Below, piece after piece: positions 2,912 to 33,215 of a stretch of 33,215 nt of DNA. The stretch lies in the NCBI GenBank assembly GCA_020721045.1, contig DYNN01000023.1:1-33215 (forward strand). Reading direction: 5' to 3'. The position numbers and the translations under genes are program-made. Position 1 is the first letter of the stretch; each line of letters begins with the position of its first letter. Under the pieces are notes generated by a model, which was not told the DNA's origin, made no database searches, and saw only the letters and a program-made list of their open reading frames with translations. Source of the stretch: Thiomargarita sp. (lineage in GTDB: Bacteria > Pseudomonadota > Gammaproteobacteria > Beggiatoales > Beggiatoaceae).

Positions 2912-2975
2912 ATCTCTATCCAAATAAATTATTATCGTGTAGCCCTTCATCAGCCCACATCGAATCGGATTTATT

Positions 2976-5900
2976 ATGAAAGCTTTTGCCGATCTTTCCA
3001 TCAAGCGTAAGCTGATTTTTATCACTATGCTGATTAACTTAATTACTTTGTTAGCAGCATCCGCTTTTTTCGCTTTAAACGAAGTCAATAACTTACATAC
3101 TGCAATGGTGAGAGATCATCAAGTATTAGCAGTCGTTATTGGAAAAAATATTGCTGCTTCACTACTATTTTATGATTCTGCCAATGCTGAAAAAACGCTG
3201 ACAACGCTAAATGTCGAACCTCATGTGATGATGGCTGTCGTTTACGATGAATTAGGCAGCGTTTTTGCGAGTTATACACGCCCCGACAGTGCTGATATTA
3301 AGCCACCAGAAGTACGAGATACTAGCTATGAGTTTACCAGCACTAATTTAGAATTATACGAAGAAATTATCTTTAAAAACAAAAAGATTGGTACAGTTTA
3401 TATTCAATCAGATTTAGGTAGAATCAATCAACTTATTAGAGAATATGTTGGTATTATTATTATAATTTTAGTTATTGCATCTCTGTTAGCACTTATCTTA
3501 TCGACAAAATTACAAACGATTATCTCAAACCCTATTTTACACTTAGTTGAAACCACCAATGCAGTGACTAAAAAGGGAGATTACAGTATTAGGGCAAAAA
3601 AATATGGTTTAGATGAATTGGGTATGCTCGTGGAAGGCTTTAACGAAATGCTTTCAAGGATTCAAGAACGAGATGAGAAATTAGCCCAACAACGAGAAAA
3701 TTTAGAAGAAGAAGTCAAATTACGCACGGCAGAACTCTATCAAACCAATCAAAATTTAAAAGAAACTATTGAAGATTTACAAGAAGCAAAAGAAGCCGCA
3801 GAAGTTGCCAGTTTAGCAAAAAGCGAATTCTTAGCTAATATGAGCCATGAGATTCGCACACCAATGAATGCTATTATCGGTATGACGGGTCTATTGTTAG
3901 ACACAGAATTAAATGCAGAACAAAGAGATTTTGTAGAAACAGTACGGCACAGCGGTGATTCACTCTTAGCCTTAATCAATGATATATTGGATTTTTCTAA
4001 AATTGATGCGGGCAAAATGGAATTAGAAAACCATCCCTTCAATATTAGAGAATGCATAGAAGCTTCATTAGATTTAATTGCCTCACGCGCAGCTGAAAAA
4101 GAATTAGAATTAGCCGCTTACTTTGATAAACAAGTGCCTTATTATTTATCTGGTGATGTGACGCGCTTGCGCCAAATTTTAGTGAATTTACTGAGTAATG
4201 CGGTTAAATTTACTGAAACAGGCGAAATTATCGTTTTAGTTTCCACCAGATTGCTTGATAATCATAAGGTAGAAATCTATTTTGCAGTAAAAGATACTGG
4301 AATTGGTATACCGACTGATAGAATGGACCGTTTATTTCAATCATTCAGTCAAGTGGATACCTCAATGACCCGCAAATATGGTGGATCAGGTTTAGGGCTT
4401 GCCATCAGTCGACATCTTTGTGAACTCATGGATGGACGTATGTGGGTTGAAAGTGAAATTAATAAAGGTTCAACTTTCCATTTCACCACAATTGTTGATG
4501 CGGTTGATACTTCTTATGATGAACAGTTTGAAGTTTCACAAACTAATTTAGCGAAAAAGCGTGTCTTGATCATTGATGATAATCATACTAACCGTCGCAT
4601 CTTAAGTTTACAGATTCGTGCATGGGGTATGGAAACCGAAGAAGCCGCTTCTGGTGAAGAAGCACTGTATAAAATATCACATCAACCACCGTTTAATTTA
4701 GCGATTTTAGATATGCAAATGCCCGTCATGGACGGCGTATCTTTGGCTAAAGAAATTCGTCGGACATTTAATAACGATCAAATTCCTTTGATAATGTTGA
4801 CATCTTTGGGCAGACAGCAAATCGAGTTGAATATTAATATTTTTGCTGCTTATTTGACCAAACCAGTAAAATCATCACAACTATTTAATTGCTTAGTAGA
4901 AATATTTACTGAACGTCACAATGTAACCCTATCTAAAAAAACCACTATCAAAAAAGTGGATGTCAGCGCAGATTTAGCCCATCAACATCCTTTACGTATT
5001 TTATTAGCAGAAGACAATGTTACCAATCAAAAAGTAGCCACATTAATCCTCAAACGCATGGGCTATACGATTGATATTGCTTCCAATGGTGCAGAAGCGG
5101 TACAAGCGGTGATGCGGCAAACCTACGATGTCGTCTTGATGGATGTGCAAATGCCAGAAATGGATGGTTTTGAAGCAACTAAGCGTATTATTGAACATTG
5201 GCCAAACCGAGAACAACGTCCCTATATCATTGCAATGACTGCGCATGCTTTAAAAGGCTATCGTGAAAAATGTCTTGAAGCGGGTATGGAAGATTATGTG
5301 ACTAAACCAGTGCGTCCTGAAGAATTAGCCACGGCATTAATGCGTGCGCCACACTACCAACGTATTGTTACAAATACAGAAAATTGTCAGCAAACACAAT
5401 CAGACTCATTGCCAAAAGCGTCGCATATGAAGCCACAGATTAACGCGACCACAACCGCTAAAAAAGATGAATCACTTTCTATAGAATCACTACAAAAACA
5501 GATTCAACAAGCTTTAGCTGCCTTGATTGGCGTTGATGATATTGATATTTATCGAGAATTGATTGAAACTTATTTAGATTGTAGTGGTAAATTAATTGAT
5601 AATTTACAAATGGCTATTGAGAATAATGATGCCAATTTACTAGAACAAGCAGCGCACAGCTTAAAATCGAGTAGTGCCAGTTTGGGGGCTGTACGATTAG
5701 CTGAACTATGTAAACAGCTAGAAATACAAGGACGTGCCCAAGATATGCAAGATGCTGCATCTAAGGTCACTTATGCTATTACCGAATTTAATCAAATTAA
5801 ACAAGCACTTAATAATATCCTCAATGCCTCGCCCCAAGAAGTTTCAGATACAGCTTCAAATAATCAAATAATGCCGCAGAGTCAACCTATCGTTGATGCA

Positions 5901-27104: not shown

Positions 27105-30100
27105 ATGCAAATCATTGTACTCGGTATGCATCGTTCCGGCACATCAGTTGTTGCACGGTTGTTAAATATGATGGGGGCATATTTCGCACCAGAAAACGTA
27201 ATGATGCCGCCGACTCCTGAAAATCCAAAGGGTTATTGGGAAAGAAACGATATCGTCTTGTTAAATGAAGGAATTTTAGCCAATTTAGGCGCAACTTGGA
27301 ATCGCATGAGTACGCTTGATTTGAGTAGAATTTCTGAAGATTTACAGCAAGAATTTAATAAACAAGCTTTGGCAATTTTACAAGGACTGGATGCTAATCG
27401 TCCTTGGATGGCGAAAGACCCACGTTTTTGTTTATTATTACCGTTATGGTTAAAATTATTAGAAGTCCCTGTTTTTGTTTATGTTTATCGTAATCCTATT
27501 CAAACTGCTCAATCTTTGCGATCACGCGACAATTTTTCTATACACTATGGTATTGCTTTATGGGAAAAATATAATTTACACGCTTTAACCCATTCTGCTG
27601 GTTTACCGCGTATTTTAATCTCTTTTCATGAATTAATGGCTGATCCAGTCAACACTGTAAAATTTCTTTATGAACAATTAATTAACTGCGATGTACAAGG
27701 ATTACGTTTACCCAGTCAGAAAGAAATTTTATCTTTTATTGATCCGCAACTGTTTCACAAAAAAGGCAATAAAGACCTAGAAAAATCCTATGTCAATCAA
27801 CAACAAAATGTTTTAGTTAAAGCATTTGAAGAAAAAACCATTTTTGAGCTGGAAAAATTACCTTTACTATCCACAGGCGCAGCGGATATTTTACAAGAAT
27901 ATGAACAGCATTTTTTTACTAAATTAGAATATGAACAACAACTTGTAACTCATCGACAAACCATTGAGCACACACAAACGCAATTGCAGCAAGAACGATT
28001 AAATTATCAAGAAAAATTAGAAAATCTCCACGCTGAATATGAGCAAAAACTAGCGGAAGAAGAACAAGAACGCATCAAACATTGGCAAAATTGGTTAGCG
28101 GCTGAAGAAAGAGAAAGTCAATTACAACAACAAATTGCCCAATTAGACACCTTGCGCGACCATCTATTACAACAAGTAGAACAAGCCACTCAAGGTTTAA
28201 CCCATAATCATCATGAATTGACCCAACTACGTGAAGAAAATCGACATCAATACGAAGACTTACATAAATTAATTCACTGGTTAGAAATGTTAAATCATGA
28301 TGTAGTGGCTTTGTTTAATTCGCAAACTTGGCGTAGTGGCGATTTTATTACGCGCATGGTGTTGAAATTGATGTTACGTGCGCCGGGTTTAACGGCAAAA
28401 GATCATATCAATAAGATCATTAACAACTTTTTTAATTGGCGCATTCATCAGTTGCGAACTGATCATCATGACAGTCGTTTTATCTCGGCAGAATCGCTAG
28501 AACAGGCTGATTATTCTAAAAAAAAAGTTAACGTCGCCGCCTTAGTTGCACTGCACAATGGCGAACCCTCAGCATCTGCAAGCATCCGTTTGATTCAACC
28601 CTTGCAGCATCCCAGTGTACAAACGATTGTGCAATTTACCCTATATACAGCAGTTGAATATTTGTACACTGTGCAACCCGATGTCATCGTCGTTCAACGC
28701 CACATGCTGCCCAATAAAACTGTTGCAGAACAATTAGTTAATTATTGTCAACATAATGGTATTAAGCTGGTTTATGAAACTGACGATGATTTGTACAATA
28801 TTTTCAAAAAACGCGATGCTTATGGCAGTTATCACAAAGATGCGTTAGATGCGCTCACAGTGATCACAGAAAAAGCTGACCAAGTAATTACTTCTTCTCC
28901 GCTATTACAACAACAAATTCAATCGATTAACCCTAATACTTTATGTATTCCAAACGCTTTAGATGAACAACTCTGGTTAACCCAACAAAATGGACAGTTT
29001 TCTTTACCTCAACCTGTACAACTAGATGATAAGATTAGAATTTTATATATGGGAACTAAAACCCATACAGAAGATTTAAAACTCGTCAAAAAAGCCTATC
29101 AACAAGTCAAAGAAAAATACGGTGATCGAGTTATTTTGGAAATCGTGGGCGGTGTGCCAGATGGTACGGCGATGTTTGATGATGTGGTGATAATAAGTGA
29201 TTTTGGTGATGGGCAATTGGACGATTATTCTCAATTTGTCAAATGGATACGTGATAACAATCGTTGGCAATTAGGGATTATTCCGCTGCAAATCAACGAA
29301 TTTAATCGAAAGAAGACTTATATTAAGTTTTTAGATTATGCTGCTTTGGGGATTGCCGCGATTTGTACCGATATAGACCCTTATCAAGAAGTCGTGCGTA
29401 ACGGTGAAAATGGCTTATTAGTGAGTAATGACACGCAAGCTTGGTATCAAGCCCTATGTCAGTTAATTGATGATGGTGCGTTGCGTCAAAATCTTGCTAC
29501 ACAAGCATTTCAGGATTTAACACAACACTATATTTTGCAACACACCGCACGCCAATTTGCCCAACCTTACCTTGATCTATGTGATGTATCATCACCGCAA
29601 CAGATTGATTCAAAATCATTTTTAACAATCGGCAATGAATATAATCGTTGGCTACGGTCATACGATAATGTGGATAATAAGTCTATTCAATTTATGCAAC
29701 AACAGATTGCAAAATGGGAAAATCCACCGCTTATTTCCATCGTTATGCCAACTTATAATATTGCAGAAAAGTGGTTATGTGCAGCAATTGATTCGGTGTG
29801 TCAACAAATTTATCCGCATTGGGAATTATGTATTGCTGATGATGCTTCTACCCTGCCACAAGTACGCAAAGTACTAGAAAGTTATGCACAAAAGGATAAA
29901 CGAATCAAAGTGCATTTTAGAAGCAAAAATGGACATATTTCTGCAGCCTCTAATGATGCTTTAAAATTAGCGACAGGTGACTATATTGCTTTGTTAGATC
30001 ATGATGATATGTTATCACGTCATGCATTATATTGGGTTGTAGAAGAAATAATTGCTTATCCTGAAAGTGCTTTGATTTATTCAGATGAAGATAAGATTAA

Positions 30101-32135
30101 TGAAAATAATGAGCGGTTTGGTGCTTATTTTAAATCAGATTGGAATTTTGATCTGTTTTTATCCCATAATTTGATTACTCATTTAGCGGTTTATAAAGCC
30201 AGTATTTTGCGCGAAATCGGTGGTTTTAGAGAAGGTTATGAAGGCGCGCAAGATTATGATTTAGCCTTGCGTGTAATCGAAAAAATTGCACCGCAACAAA
30301 TTCGTCATATCCCGCGTATCTTGTACCATTGGCGCACTTTGGAAACCAGCACGTCGGCAAATCCTGATGCAAAACCTTATGCGATTCAAGCCGCTATTAA
30401 AGCAATCAGTGAATTTTGGCAACGACAAAACGTCGGTGTTCGGGTTGCCGAATCGTTGACCATGACTGGTATGATTCGTGTGCAATATCAATTACCTAGC
30501 AATCCGCCGTTGGTGAGTATTATTATTCCCACTTACAATCAGGTGAAGTTGTTACGTCAATGTGTTGATAGTATTTTACAAAAAACAGATTACCAACCAA
30601 TTGAAATTATTATTGTTGATAACCGTAGTGACGATGCAGCAACGTTAGCTTATCTTGAAAAAATACAGGGGCAAGTTAAAGTTATTCGTTACGATCAACC
30701 GTTTAATTATGCGGCGATCAACAATTTTGCGGTTGCACAAGCACAAGGTGAATTGATCTGTTTATTAAATAATGATATTGAAGTAATTAGTCGAGGTTGG
30801 TTGTCAGAAATGGTGAGCCATGCGTTGCGAGAAGGCGTTGGTGCTGTGGGTGCGCGCTTGTGGTATCCTTCGCATACTTTACAACATGCAGGGATTTTAT
30901 TGGGTGTGGGCGGTATTGCAGAACATGCGCATAAAGGCTTGCGTTACGGTGAAGGCGGCTATTTTGGACGTGCGCAAGTGATTCAAAATTTTTCAGCAGT
31001 TACCGGTGCTTGTATGGTTTTGCGTAAAGCCGCATTTTTAGAGGTTGATGGATTGGATTCACAGCATTTAAGTGTGGCATTTAATGACATCGATTTGTGT
31101 TTAAAATTGGCAGAAAAATGCTTGCGTATTGTATGGACACCTTATGCAGAATTGTATCATCATGAATCAGCAAGTCGCGGTTATGAGGATACGCCCGAAA
31201 AACGTAAACGATTGGAAAATGAAAGTGCTTACATGCAGAAACGTTGGGGACAATTATTAAACCACGATCCTGCGTATAATCCTAATTTAAACAATCAGAA
31301 AGGTGATTTTTCTTTAGCATTTCCGCCACGCATTTCATCACAACAACGTTGGAATAATCACGCTATGTTCTTTAATTTCAAGAAACCTAAATCTAAACAA
31401 TTACCTACTGATATGCCCACTACGGACAGAGAAATTCCGCCCGCTATTTTGCATCGTTGGCAAGGATATAAATTGTTGAAAGGAAAAGGGTTAGAAATTG
31501 GAGCCTTGCACGAGCCGGCACAAATTCCCAAAGAGTGTTCCATTGAATATTGCGATGCACAAACTAAAGAAGAGTTGACGCAAAATTTTCCAGAATTGCA
31601 AGGAAAAACACTCGTAGAGGTGGATCATATTTGTGATTTGGATAAGCAAGGCTTGTCAATTTTTGCTAAAGACAGTTACGATTTTGTGATTTTAAATCAT
31701 GTCATTGAGCATGTAGCAAATCCAATTAAAACAATCAGTGAATTATTTCGTGTCGTGAAACCCAATGGATTGGTTATATTGTCAGCACCTGATAAAGATT
31801 TCACGTTTGATAAAAAGCGGGCTTTGACTAGTTTTGAACATTTACAAGCTGAATACAATAATAATGTCATGGAAGTTTCTAATGAACATTATATGGATTT
31901 TTTAACAGTTGTGCATCCAGAATTATTACGTTTAGAACCTGCTGAAATTCAAGCGCATTTTAACAGTATTAAACAACGGCGTGAACATGCCCATGTTTGG
32001 AATTCTCGCAGTTTCAAGGATTTTTTGCAAAAAACATTTACTTTACTCAATTTACCCGTCAAATGTGTTTTAGAAATCAACAGTCAGCAAAGTGGTTTTG
32101 AGTATTTTTCTGTGTGGCAAAAAACTGAGAATTAA
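27105..32135 (+). CDS. Sulfotransferase / triple glycosyltransferase / methyltransferase fusion protein
   Basis: A 1676-aa cytoplasmic multienzyme, probably for a surface glycan. In order: sulfotransferase-family P-loop domain (~1-250; LGMHRSGTSVVARLL binds the PAPS 5'-phosphosulfate in this family); charged coiled coil (~270-400); a GT-B, family-4-like glycosyltransferase (~475-840; VNVAALVALHNGEPSASASIR, ETDDDLYN, FLDYAALGIAAICTD). Then two GT2 domains: the first (~875-1110) has PTYNIAEKW and the DHDD metal site at 965-968, the second (~1135-1375) has PTYNQVKLL and NND at 1222-1224. A class I methyltransferase (~1455-1676; GLEIGALHEP, FVILNHVIEHV) ends the chain. No membrane segment is seen. 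Such fusions could build a short sulfated or methylated oligosaccharide on one scaffold. Substrates are unknown. There are no biosynthetic neighbours in the window. Confidence 0.9.
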   Translation: MQIIVLGMHRSGTSVVARLLNMMGAYFAPENVMMPPTPENPKGYWERNDIVLLNEGILANLGATWNRMSTLDLSRISEDLQQEFNKQALAILQGLDANRPWMAKDPRFCLLLPLWLKLLEVPVFVYVYRNPIQTAQSLRSRDNFSIHYGIALWEKYNLHALTHSAGLPRILISFHELMADPVNTVKFLYEQLINCDVQGLRLPSQKEILSFIDPQLFHKKGNKDLEKSYVNQQQNVLVKAFEEKTIFELEKLPLLSTGAADILQEYEQHFFTKLEYEQQLVTHRQTIEHTQTQLQQERLNYQEKLENLHAEYEQKLAEEEQERIKHWQNWLAAEERESQLQQQIAQLDTLRDHLLQQVEQATQGLTHNHHELTQLREENRHQYEDLHKLIHWLEMLNHDVVALFNSQTWRSGDFITRMVLKLMLRAPGLTAKDHINKIINNFFNWRIHQLRTDHHDSRFISAESLEQADYSKKKVNVAALVALHNGEPSASASIRLIQPLQHPSVQTIVQFTLYTAVEYLYTVQPDVIVVQRHMLPNKTVAEQLVNYCQHNGIKLVYETDDDLYNIFKKRDAYGSYHKDALDALTVITEKADQVITSSPLLQQQIQSINPNTLCIPNALDEQLWLTQQNGQFSLPQPVQLDDKIRILYMGTKTHTEDLKLVKKAYQQVKEKYGDRVILEIVGGVPDGTAMFDDVVIISDFGDGQLDDYSQFVKWIRDNNRWQLGIIPLQINEFNRKKTYIKFLDYAALGIAAICTDIDPYQEVVRNGENGLLVSNDTQAWYQALCQLIDDGALRQNLATQAFQDLTQHYILQHTARQFAQPYLDLCDVSSPQQIDSKSFLTIGNEYNRWLRSYDNVDNKSIQFMQQQIAKWENPPLISIVMPTYNIAEKWLCAAIDSVCQQIYPHWELCIADDASTLPQVRKVLESYAQKDKRIKVHFRSKNGHISAASNDALKLATGDYIALLDHDDMLSRHALYWVVEEIIAYPESALIYSDEDKINENNERFGAYFKSDWNFDLFLSHNLITHLAVYKASILREIGGFREGYEGAQDYDLALRVIEKIAPQQIRHIPRILYHWRTLETSTSANPDAKPYAIQAAIKAISEFWQRQNVGVRVAESLTMTGMIRVQYQLPSNPPLVSIIIPTYNQVKLLRQCVDSILQKTDYQPIEIIIVDNRSDDAATLAYLEKIQGQVKVIRYDQPFNYAAINNFAVAQAQGELICLLNNDIEVISRGWLSEMVSHALREGVGAVGARLWYPSHTLQHAGILLGVGGIAEHAHKGLRYGEGGYFGRAQVIQNFSAVTGACMVLRKAAFLEVDGLDSQHLSVAFNDIDLCLKLAEKCLRIVWTPYAELYHHESASRGYEDTPEKRKRLENESAYMQKRWGQLLNHDPAYNPNLNNQKGDFSLAFPPRISSQQRWNNHAMFFNFKKPKSKQLPTDMPTTDREIPPAILHRWQGYKLLKGKGLEIGALHEPAQIPKECSIEYCDAQTKEELTQNFPELQGKTLVEVDHICDLDKQGLSIFAKDSYDFVILNHVIEHVANPIKTISELFRVVKPNGLVILSAPDKDFTFDKKRALTSFEHLQAEYNNNVMEVSNEHYMDFLTVVHPELLRLEPAEIQAHFNSIKQRREHAHVWNSRSFKDFLQKTFTLLNLPVKCVLEINSQQSGFEYFSVWQKTEN

Positions 32136-32407
32136 CTCTTAGAAGCAAGCGGAGAAAAACAACTCTATCGCTGGGAGCATCAAGATGTGATAGAAAGCCA
32201 GAAATGAGGCTAATTAAACTCGGTAGAGGCTGAGTAGGGTGCGTCTTTTACAGACTCAGCACTTGGGAACGAGATCAACACCTTTTAGAATGTCATCCAT
32301 GACAAGCTATTTTGCTATTTACTCCTTAAAAGGCATGGAAATTCACTCATGGATAACTGTATGCTACGCTTGCTACATCCTTAAATGCCGCAATTCTGAG
32401 ACAAACA
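32136..32407. other. Intergenic region between the megasynthase and the DGR template
   Basis: No complete gene. The first 24 codons (32136-32207) stay open in the frame of the upstream gene after its stop and read like protein (EASGEKQLYRWEHQDVIESQ, then TGA); this may be the 3' remnant of a lost gene. A hairpin follows at 32229-32260. The remainder carries nothing I recognise. Confidence 0.35.
32229..32260. repeat. Inverted repeat downstream of the DGR template
   Basis: A perfect 7-bp stem (GCTGAGT / ACTCAGC) with an 18-nt interval. Inside and overlapping it is an alternative hairpin, GTCT-TTTAC-AGAC (32243-32255). It lies about 150 nt beyond the template repeat in the reading direction of the reverse transcriptase. 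It might be a terminator, a structure of the DGR RNA, or chance. Confidence 0.35.
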
Positions 32408-32520
32408 GCCAGACTGGAAAGACGAAAACCCCTGTTGTTGTTCCTGTTAGTTGTATCGTTCCTATTACGGTTGGCACAACGCAAGTTATTATCATTGTTG
32501 TTCCAAGAACCACCACGAAG
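32408..32520 (-). repeat. DGR template repeat (TR), C-type-lectin/FGE type
   Basis: Read on the minus strand, this 113-nt stretch spells RGGSWNNND...ANRNRND...NRNNNRGFRLSS, the variable-repeat consensus of formylglycine-generating-enzyme/C-type-lectin-fold DGR target proteins. Twelve Asn codons (nine AAC, three AAT) occur within 24 codons of the tract, as expected for a template whose adenines are mutagenised during reverse transcription. It has no start codon or gene body and begins 11 nt after the stop of the DGR-type reverse transcriptase, so it is a template, not the C-terminus of a real gene. The matching variable repeat must lie outside the window. Confidence 0.87.
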
Positions 32521-32531
32521 GAGATGCGCTT

Positions 32532-33163
32532 TTAGGTGAATTCCTCAACTAACATGTTAGCAGAAAAGATTTTTTTACACAAACCTTCAGTATCAGCATG
32601 TTTTGCATGACCTATCCAACTTTGGATACTTGAATTCACAGTTTTCCAAGTTACTTTATTTTGTTGATAAGCATGAGAAAGATAACGTAATCGACGGGCA
32701 AAACGATGTCTATTGTCATTACGTAAACGTCGGAAGGTAGGAAAGACTCGGTAGCCAAGAAAATCTAAACCTTGACTAGTAGGTGTAATATGAGCTTTAC
32801 GAGGATGTAATCGTAAACGCTGAGAAGCAAGGCAATCTCGAATTTTTTCTCGAATCAGGTGTAATTCTTTTTTATCGTCACTCAGTACCACGAAATCATC
32901 AACATAACGTATATAAGCATCAATTTTTAGCGTTTCTGTCATATAATAATCAAAATCATCTAAATATAAATTCGCAAGAAATTGACTGGTGAGATTGCCA
33001 ATCGGAATGCCTTTGCGACGCTCAATCGGTGTTAATAAATCATCTCCAAGGTACCATTGAGGATCGGTAGAAATCACAGGCGAAGTGTCTATGATTTTAT
33101 TGAATAAATTCAGTGTTTCAGCTTCTTGAATATAATTTTTTATCTTATTTTTTAATATAGTAT
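32532..33163 (-). pseudogene. 5'-truncated DGR-type reverse transcriptase
   Basis: C-terminal portion of a reverse transcriptase that copies the template repeat. Visible blocks: ILKNKIKNYIQEAETLNLFNKIIDTSP (upstream of any start codon), KGIPIGNLTSQFLANLYLDDF with the IGxxxSQ signature typical of DGR enzymes, the catalytic YVDD box (32895-32906), LHPRKAHITP, DFLGYRVFP, and a C-terminal SWIGHAKHADT. The first palm block with the other catalytic Asp (KADIxxYF type) is missing. The frame runs into unrelated sequence at about 33163, with no ATG, where an insertion-sequence-like end begins. A GTG at 33077 opens only a partial product. As shown here it should be inactive, unless the missing part is joined beyond the window. 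Confidence 0.82.
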
Positions 33164-33215
33164 TAGGACTTACGCATTGACGGCAGTCCGAAATTGTGGA
33201 TTGAGATAATCTTTA
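33164..33215. mobile_element. Probable insertion-sequence end
   Basis: The reverse-transcriptase similarity stops abruptly and is followed by TAGGACTTACGCA, which resembles terminal inverted repeats I recall from insertion sequences of cyanobacteria and sulfur bacteria. No transposase is visible, because the window ends 52 nt later. The insertion reading rests on the broken gene plus this terminal motif. Confidence 0.45.

Follow-up and report, generated by a model that had tools for sequence, protein, structure and literature searches.

Does the reverse transcriptase (RT) at the edge of contig C147 belong to a genuine diversity-generating retroelement (DGR), and if so, which genes does it vary and can it still vary them? 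The window, i.e., the whole stretch of DNA that was analysed, is this entire contig (33,215 bases) from an assembly of 3,394,625 bases in 253 contigs. An earlier note on it had read a repeat next to the RT as the template repeat of a DGR whose diversified targets might lie at a distance. The features on which this reading is based are the following.

32532-33163, minus strand: C-terminal part of the RT with the blocks GIPIGNLTSQ and RYVDDFVVL (Pfam RVT_1, 1.1e-12; from the ORF list)
32414-32529, minus strand: template repeat TR1 (116 bp), with own-genome matches on contigs C211, C113, C44 and C21 and mismatches at template adenines
32293-32413, minus strand: template-RNA segment 3' of TR1, alike in TR1, in the template TR2 of a second DGR and in relatives, holding TCCATGAGTGAATTTCC at 32337-32353 (from the DNA match to contig C60, alignment and motif count)

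Both RT blocks named in the earlier note (IGNLTSQ, YVDD) are present, and its count of 12 Asn codons rich in AAC is reproduced (9 AAC, 3 AAT). TR1 is composed of 34 adenines and 82 other sites, and its translation, AHLLRGGSWNNNDNNLRCANRNRNDTTNRNNNRGFRLS, gives a weak Pfam FGE-sulfatase match of 22.8 bits, just below the cut-off of 23.3. The reported distance of 11 nt between RT and repeat is correct as far as the gap 32531-32521 is concerned; the match between template and variable repeats (VRs) already begins at 32529, however, such that 2 nt separate TR1 from the RT stop codon (32534-32532, minus strand). Rfam models gave nothing up to E 1 for 31000-33215. We rejected the alternative that the RT belongs to another class (retron, group II intron, Abi), given the IGNLTSQ block and the adenine-specific repeats described below. 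Beside the locus, 27105-32135 encodes a 1676-aa protein in which, judged by eye from the translation, sulfotransferase-, glycosyltransferase- and methyltransferase-like parts are joined in one chain.

We searched the own genome with 32380-32535 for copies that differ at template adenines, as the earlier note had proposed. Four matches over 116-119 bp were obtained (C211 94%, C113 91%, C44 90%, C21 85%), i.e., four more copies over the 116 bp of TR1, besides a weaker match to the second template repeat on C60 and three short matches (E 0.46-5.6) that we take as chance. Their mismatches to TR1 are distributed as follows.

VR on C211: 7 mismatches at A, 0 elsewhere
VR on C113: 9 mismatches at A, 1 elsewhere
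VR on C44: 12 mismatches at A, 0 elsewhere
VR on C21: 17 mismatches at A, 0 elsewhere

Pooled over the four VRs, 45/46 mismatches fall on TR1 adenines, which occupy 34 of the 116 positions (hypergeometric p 9e-26), and only one of 328 non-adenine sites differs (in C113). That is, the repeat has further copies and these differ at template adenines, the opposite of what the earlier note had named as evidence against its reading. The changed adenines became G (32) or T (13) and are found mainly at first (28) and second (15) codon positions, with 2 at third positions. No change to C is observed among 61 adenine changes here (the four VRs of TR1 plus the C60 VR of the second DGR), compared to 148/1127 in the 79 pairs that 60 other loci provide (binomial p 0.0002); the remaining VR of the second DGR, on C179, was left out since its alignment needs a gap. 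We nevertheless dropped the idea of a restricted error spectrum: the sites are not independent, a Thiomargarita relative (SulCav_FS08) shows 7/111 such changes, and C is reported as the rarest adenine change in DGRs at large, with single VRs differing widely (PMC3521204).

Given the RT blocks and the adenine-specific copies, it is highly probable that the locus is a genuine cellular DGR, hereafter DGR1, which serves local and trans targets from one template. In accordance with the distance proposed in the earlier note, the VRs are located on other contigs, and all four are the 3' ends of FGE-sulfatase, i.e., lectin-fold, genes (domain 170-221 bits at the C-terminus, assigned via Pfam).

Target on C113: 470 aa, coiled-coil-like N-terminus and FGE-sulfatase domain; beside bAvd and RT
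Target on C211: 718 aa, protein kinase domain and FGE-sulfatase domain; remote
Target on C44: 357 aa, TPR and FGE-sulfatase domain; remote, starts less than 50 bp from the contig end and may be incomplete
Target on C21: 408 aa, rear of a caspase domain (positions 112-225 of 233) and FGE-sulfatase domain; remote, starts less than 50 bp from the contig end and may be incomplete

The genome holds eight full-length FGE matches; six of them have a VR, which belongs to DGR1 in four cases and to the second DGR in two. The FGE genes on C127 and C110 are matched by neither the TR1 nor the TR2 search. The targets may act as sensors with a varied binding face.

We also compared the four target genes with each other. 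The 333 bp 5' of the VR differ by 9-34% between pairs, and the 60 bp 3' of it by 3-8%. Within the VR, pairs differ at 0-1 of the 82 non-adenine sites but at 12-22 of the 34 adenine sites. Uniform non-adenine sites within diverged genes are a pattern predicted by repeated overwriting from one TR, which suggests, within the one assembly at hand, recent homing in all four target genes and thus recent activity of DGR1. DGR1 comprises, in this order, a target gene with VR, bAvd, RT and TR. In the proposed mechanism, the RT would misread adenines while copying the TR transcript, and the resulting cDNA would overwrite the corresponding 3' end in at least four genes of the lectin-fold (FGE-sulfatase) type, namely one neighbour and three remote ones with kinase, TPR and caspase-type fusions.

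With regard to the current state of DGR1, the window alone is not sufficient, since the RT is split in a way that is invisible within it. The additional features involved are located at the window edge and on C113.

33159-33163, minus strand: one copy (ATACT, 5 bp) of a target-site duplication, the other copy being on C113
33164-33215, no strand assigned: end of a multicopy insertion sequence with terminal repeat TAGGACTTACGCATTGAC at 33164-33181, which splits the RT and at which the contig stops
C113:52-492, minus strand: N-terminal 146 codons of the RT, running up to MDVLQYFPSIDHT and carrying the first catalytic block MDVLQYFPSIDH
C113:492-842, minus strand: bAvd gene (PF22296, 63.9 bits at a cut-off of 40, 2.2e-17)

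From its start, C113 shows an insertion-sequence end, the N-terminal part of the RT, bAvd and the C113 target, while C147 terminates in the opposite end of this element. The insertion lies between the catalytic blocks of the RT, i.e., MDVLQYFPSIDH is on the C113 side and IGNLTSQ/YVDD on the C147 side. The accessory gene and the variable repeat that the earlier note had listed as absent are thus present upstream of the RT, past the insertion sequence; they seemed to be lacking because the assembly breaks at this element at the window edge. Position 33163, with which the earlier note had ended the locus, is the exact end of the RT piece, and the insertion-sequence end starts at 33164.

The terminal repeat TAGGASTTACGCATTGAC has 25 exact matches in the genome, compared to 0 for the reversed pattern; for 21 of the 25, a contig end is no more than 220 bases away. 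The interior of the element was not found in the assembly, where its two ends are represented by 160 bp on C143 and by 216 bp on C28/C44. On C80 (7115-7251), two terminal repeats of the element face each other at a distance of only 137 bp, an arrangement that resembles a miniature non-autonomous copy. The first 60 bases of both C147 and C44 carry ACATACATTTAAATAT, perhaps the end of another assembly-breaking repeat.

We infer the join of C147 and C113 from the insertion-sequence ends, the 5-bp duplication, the reading frame and synteny. The reconstructed empty site encodes a stop-free RT of 354 aa. No single open frame of the assembly spans both catalytic blocks of the DGR1 RT, and a search of the own genome for DGR-type RTs yielded its two halves plus the C60 RT, with no contig carrying an intact copy. 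Based on the interruption between the catalytic blocks, the DGR1 RT is quite probably inactive in the sequenced chromosome that the assembly represents; the insertion sequence would stop the RT, and the variants would now be frozen unless a substitute acts. Compared to the genome of Thiomargarita sp. SulCav_FS08, dN/dS is 0.115 for the C-terminal half of the RT and 0.071 for Avd, which points to genes under selection until recently; synonymous sites of the N-terminal half are saturated.

A potential substitute is the second DGR (DGR2) of the same genome.

C60:5724-8400: DGR2 with FGE target, bAvd, uninterrupted 338-aa RT and TR2
C179:64234-64369: second VR of DGR2, in a remote FGE target

The local VR of DGR2 differs from TR2 at 16/38 adenines and at 0/95 other sites, and its local and remote targets are 93% alike over 900 bp. 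DGR1 and DGR2 share 212/333 RT residues (64% identical) and 77/113 Avd residues. An identical TCCATGAGTGAATTTCC follows both TR1 and TR2 at a distance of 60-61 nt, and the DNA downstream on C60 matches 32293-32353. Across the loci compared, the motif is found with at most 4 mismatches in 16/63 (three rows being one genome) compared to 1/63 in a control stretch. Such stretches, including variants like TCCATGAGTCCGTTTCC, are mostly located about 60 nt behind the TR and occur in sulfur bacteria, methanotrophs and Nitrospira (L046, L048, L056, L076, L077, L082, L092, L105, L110, L079, L081, L087, L098 and L153). We consider the TCCATGAGTGAATTTCC stretch a candidate recognition element of the template RNA; if it is one, it would be the basis of cross-talk between DGR1 and DGR2.

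Next, we compared DGR1 with related loci. The best named match to the window piece (84%) is locus L076 (DYNP01000008.1) of the SulCav_FS08 MAG, and the host of DGR1 is a gammaproteobacterium of the family to which this MAG belongs. L076 shows the order of DGR1, i.e., a caspase-FGE target, Avd, an intact 354-aa RT and the TR, and 16/16 of its TR/VR mismatches are at A. C113 aligns with positions 1591-2917 of the L076 piece and C147 with 2926-3796, that is, C147 resumes 9 bases on. RT and Avd of both loci agree in 304/354 and 97/112 residues, respectively. In a tree of 87 RT rows the two RTs are sisters (100/100), with a Thiohalocapsa MAG and filamentous cyanobacteria among their neighbours; the bootstrap of this tree is not fully settled, the DGR1 row joins two halves, and L055 and L075 were dropped.

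The TR of the SulCav_FS08 MAG has matches in seven of its genes, of which one is local and six are remote. All six remote repeats end FGE-sulfatase genes, kinase and TPR fusions among them, and 5/6 show 0-1 non-adenine mismatches in ungapped comparison. The sixth (L183) has 15 such mismatches and needs a 3-nt gap; it is outside these clean five, although its A changes are inside the 111 counted above. Similarity to the targets of DGR1 extends to the N-terminal parts, with 46% over 417 aa for the C211 kinase, 78% over 137 aa for the C44 TPR part and, versus the local SulCav_FS08 target, 30% over 135 aa for the caspase part of C21. For the N-terminus of the C113 target, no match was found among the seven SulCav_FS08 targets. 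Since target parts are shared by both genomes, the layout of one template with dispersed targets would go back at least to the time when the two genera diverged, or it was transferred together with the targets. One of the remote targets (L179; G015:C133:5500-9500) is a protein of 778 aa with a long N-terminal part that has no Pfam match up to E 1e-4.

Given these observations, different explanations of the near-identical repeats and of the split RT can be weighed. The five near-identical stretches could be recent duplicates of one lectin-fold gene end under selection on the binding face, with no homing involved. The targets are indeed all homologous FGE domains, and even the roughly 60 bp behind their stop codons are alike (the 3-8% given above). 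But protein selection does not explain the adenine specificity, and recent duplication is contradicted by diverged flanks around uniform non-adenine sites, by a non-coding template behind the RT and by the same pattern in a second genus, such that we rejected this explanation as practically without probability. Slightly more room, yet still very little, is left for the view that the RT halves are not one gene, i.e., that the true neighbours of the two contigs are others, the RT being a leftover fragment of another element. The assembly breaks at a repeat with about a dozen copies (25 ends), so the join had to be deduced; the matching 5-bp duplication, the opposite terminal-repeat types on the two sides, the unbroken frame and the synteny with the Thiomargarita locus argue against this view.

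If DGR1 is accepted as a DGR with an interrupted RT, it could nevertheless still work. DGR2 might act in trans on the TR1 transcript with its own RT and Avd, for which its uninterrupted 338-aa RT, its bAvd, the adenine-only differences between TR2 and the local VR, the RT and Avd similarity and the identical TCCATGAGTGAATTTCC behind both TRs can be put forward. The VR sets keep to their own templates, however: the TR2 search reaches TR1 at 78% and the C113 VR at 71%, and nothing better. Furthermore, a merely recent interruption would leave the same-looking VRs, and we regard rescue by DGR2 as unlikely. Somewhat less doubtful, though still improbable, is an interruption that only some members of the population or some copies of the chromosome carry, where cells with an intact RT sustain DGR1. 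Such coexistence of intact-RT and transposon-interrupted-RT strains is described for Thiohalocapsa sp. PB-PSB1 (PMC10907252), the empty site reads through without other damage, and a single differing non-adenine site among the 328 indicates that decay is slight. On the other hand, the DGR-type matches of the RT search are confined to the C60 RT and the DGR1 halves, i.e., a contig with intact DGR1 RT is absent from the assembly. Our preferred reading is thus a genuine DGR that was recently active on local and trans targets and whose RT is now cut by the insertion sequence.

This reading can be related to known systems. Trans targets and insertion-cut RTs are both known from other bacteria, and DGR1 is a new example rather than a new kind. 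Thiohalocapsa sp. PB-PSB1 has nine DGR loci with kinase and caspase-like targets and transposon-interrupted RTs beside intact variants (PMC10907252). As described there for PB-PSB1 and for 'clade 5' cellular DGRs, the genome studied here holds several DGRs whose lectin-fold targets are fused to domains of the kinase, caspase-like and other conflict-system types, and it shares with them the RT interrupted by a transposon and targets spread via duplication and domain shuffling. Unlike what the accessible text of that source describes, one template here is shared by one local and three remote genes, the number of DGRs is limited to two, and the uniformity of the VRs is measured against their diverged flanks. 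Cyanobacterial DGRs likewise have remote lectin-fold targets identified at the 3' end by TR/VR similarity, often with serine/threonine kinase domains, and transposases nearby (PMC7517822). In the part of that source available, transposase genes are found near targets or flanking the RT of a degraded cassette, whereas the insertion sequence here is inside the RT, and the phylum is a different one. SulCav_FS08 shares the orthologous Avd-RT-TR block and kinase- and TPR-type remote targets with related N-termini; in contrast to DGR1, its RT is intact, its local target is a caspase fusion, and it has six instead of three remote genes. A literature search joining DGRs with Thiomargarita or Beggiatoa returned no DGR term among the matches listed.

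Bordetella phage BPP-1 resembles DGR1 in A-to-N mutagenesis, Avd, RT and homing to a lectin-fold 3' end, and its GC-rich hairpin behind the VR has candidate counterparts here, but its single target is a phage tail protein (PMC3240598, PMC12875486). Its homing is reported to require the hairpin (PMC3240598). For DGR1, the hairpin CCCCCGCTTGCGGGGG has only three exact copies in the genome, each 64-65 bp behind a VR (C44, C113, C211) and with the loop CTTG, whereas hairpins of phage DGRs have a GRNA loop and follow the VR at 4-34 bp (PMC3240598, PMC12875486). Among relatives, a GC-rich hairpin is found within 120 bp behind the VR in 23/75 pairs compared to 0/75 in front of it and a mean of 0.35 for shuffled sequences (L055 and L075, from the genome of L076, dropped). 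On the other hand, CCCCCGCTTGCGGGGG was not found 3' of the C21 VR, a search for GC-rich hairpins 3' of both DGR2 VRs found none, and the 14-base core CCCCGCTTGCGGGG is present in 3/6 remote SulCav_FS08 repeats and absent in the other 3/6. These exceptions weaken a strict role of the hairpin.

A global DGR survey states that remote targets would escape it (PMC8144416); here, remote diversified targets can be found by their adenine pattern. Since homing keeps the VR sites uniform while the surrounding genes diverge by up to a third, trans homing becomes measurable from the genome alone. The cut RT beside an intact paralogous DGR also allows one to ask whether DGRs replace each other within one cell, which bears on the survival of such systems against the transposons that break them. 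Tentatively, and with low probability, one template might vary a dispersed receptor set (four genes here, seven in the related genus) that stays in step off the adenines, with this broadcast switched off by the insertion sequence or carried in trans by the DGR2 RT, given that DGR2 shares the candidate recognition element. If true, a diversified receptor family would be fixed or released together, via a mobile element or DGR cross-talk.

Finally, we assessed how common the arrangement is. The earlier note had regarded the order of RT followed by TR as worth follow-up; it is the usual one, with the TR starting behind the RT's IGN..Q block in 55/60 relatives' loci with a TR/VR pair. This is based on 110 loci tried, among which 19 were without a located RT block and 27 without a pair, while L046 (the own locus), L055 and L075 (same genome as L076) and L121 (only on the opposite strand) were dropped from the counts. 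Beggiatoaceae are described as comprising 25 GTDB genera (PMC11172852), and the genome listing of the surveyed family likewise contains 25, such that this family is probably Beggiatoaceae. An RT match is found in 27/42 genomes and is DGR-like in 16/42 at an identity cut of 42%. Among these 16 best DGR-like rows, 4 contain in-frame stops (G025, G029, G030, G031), i.e., RT decay is not rare in the family.
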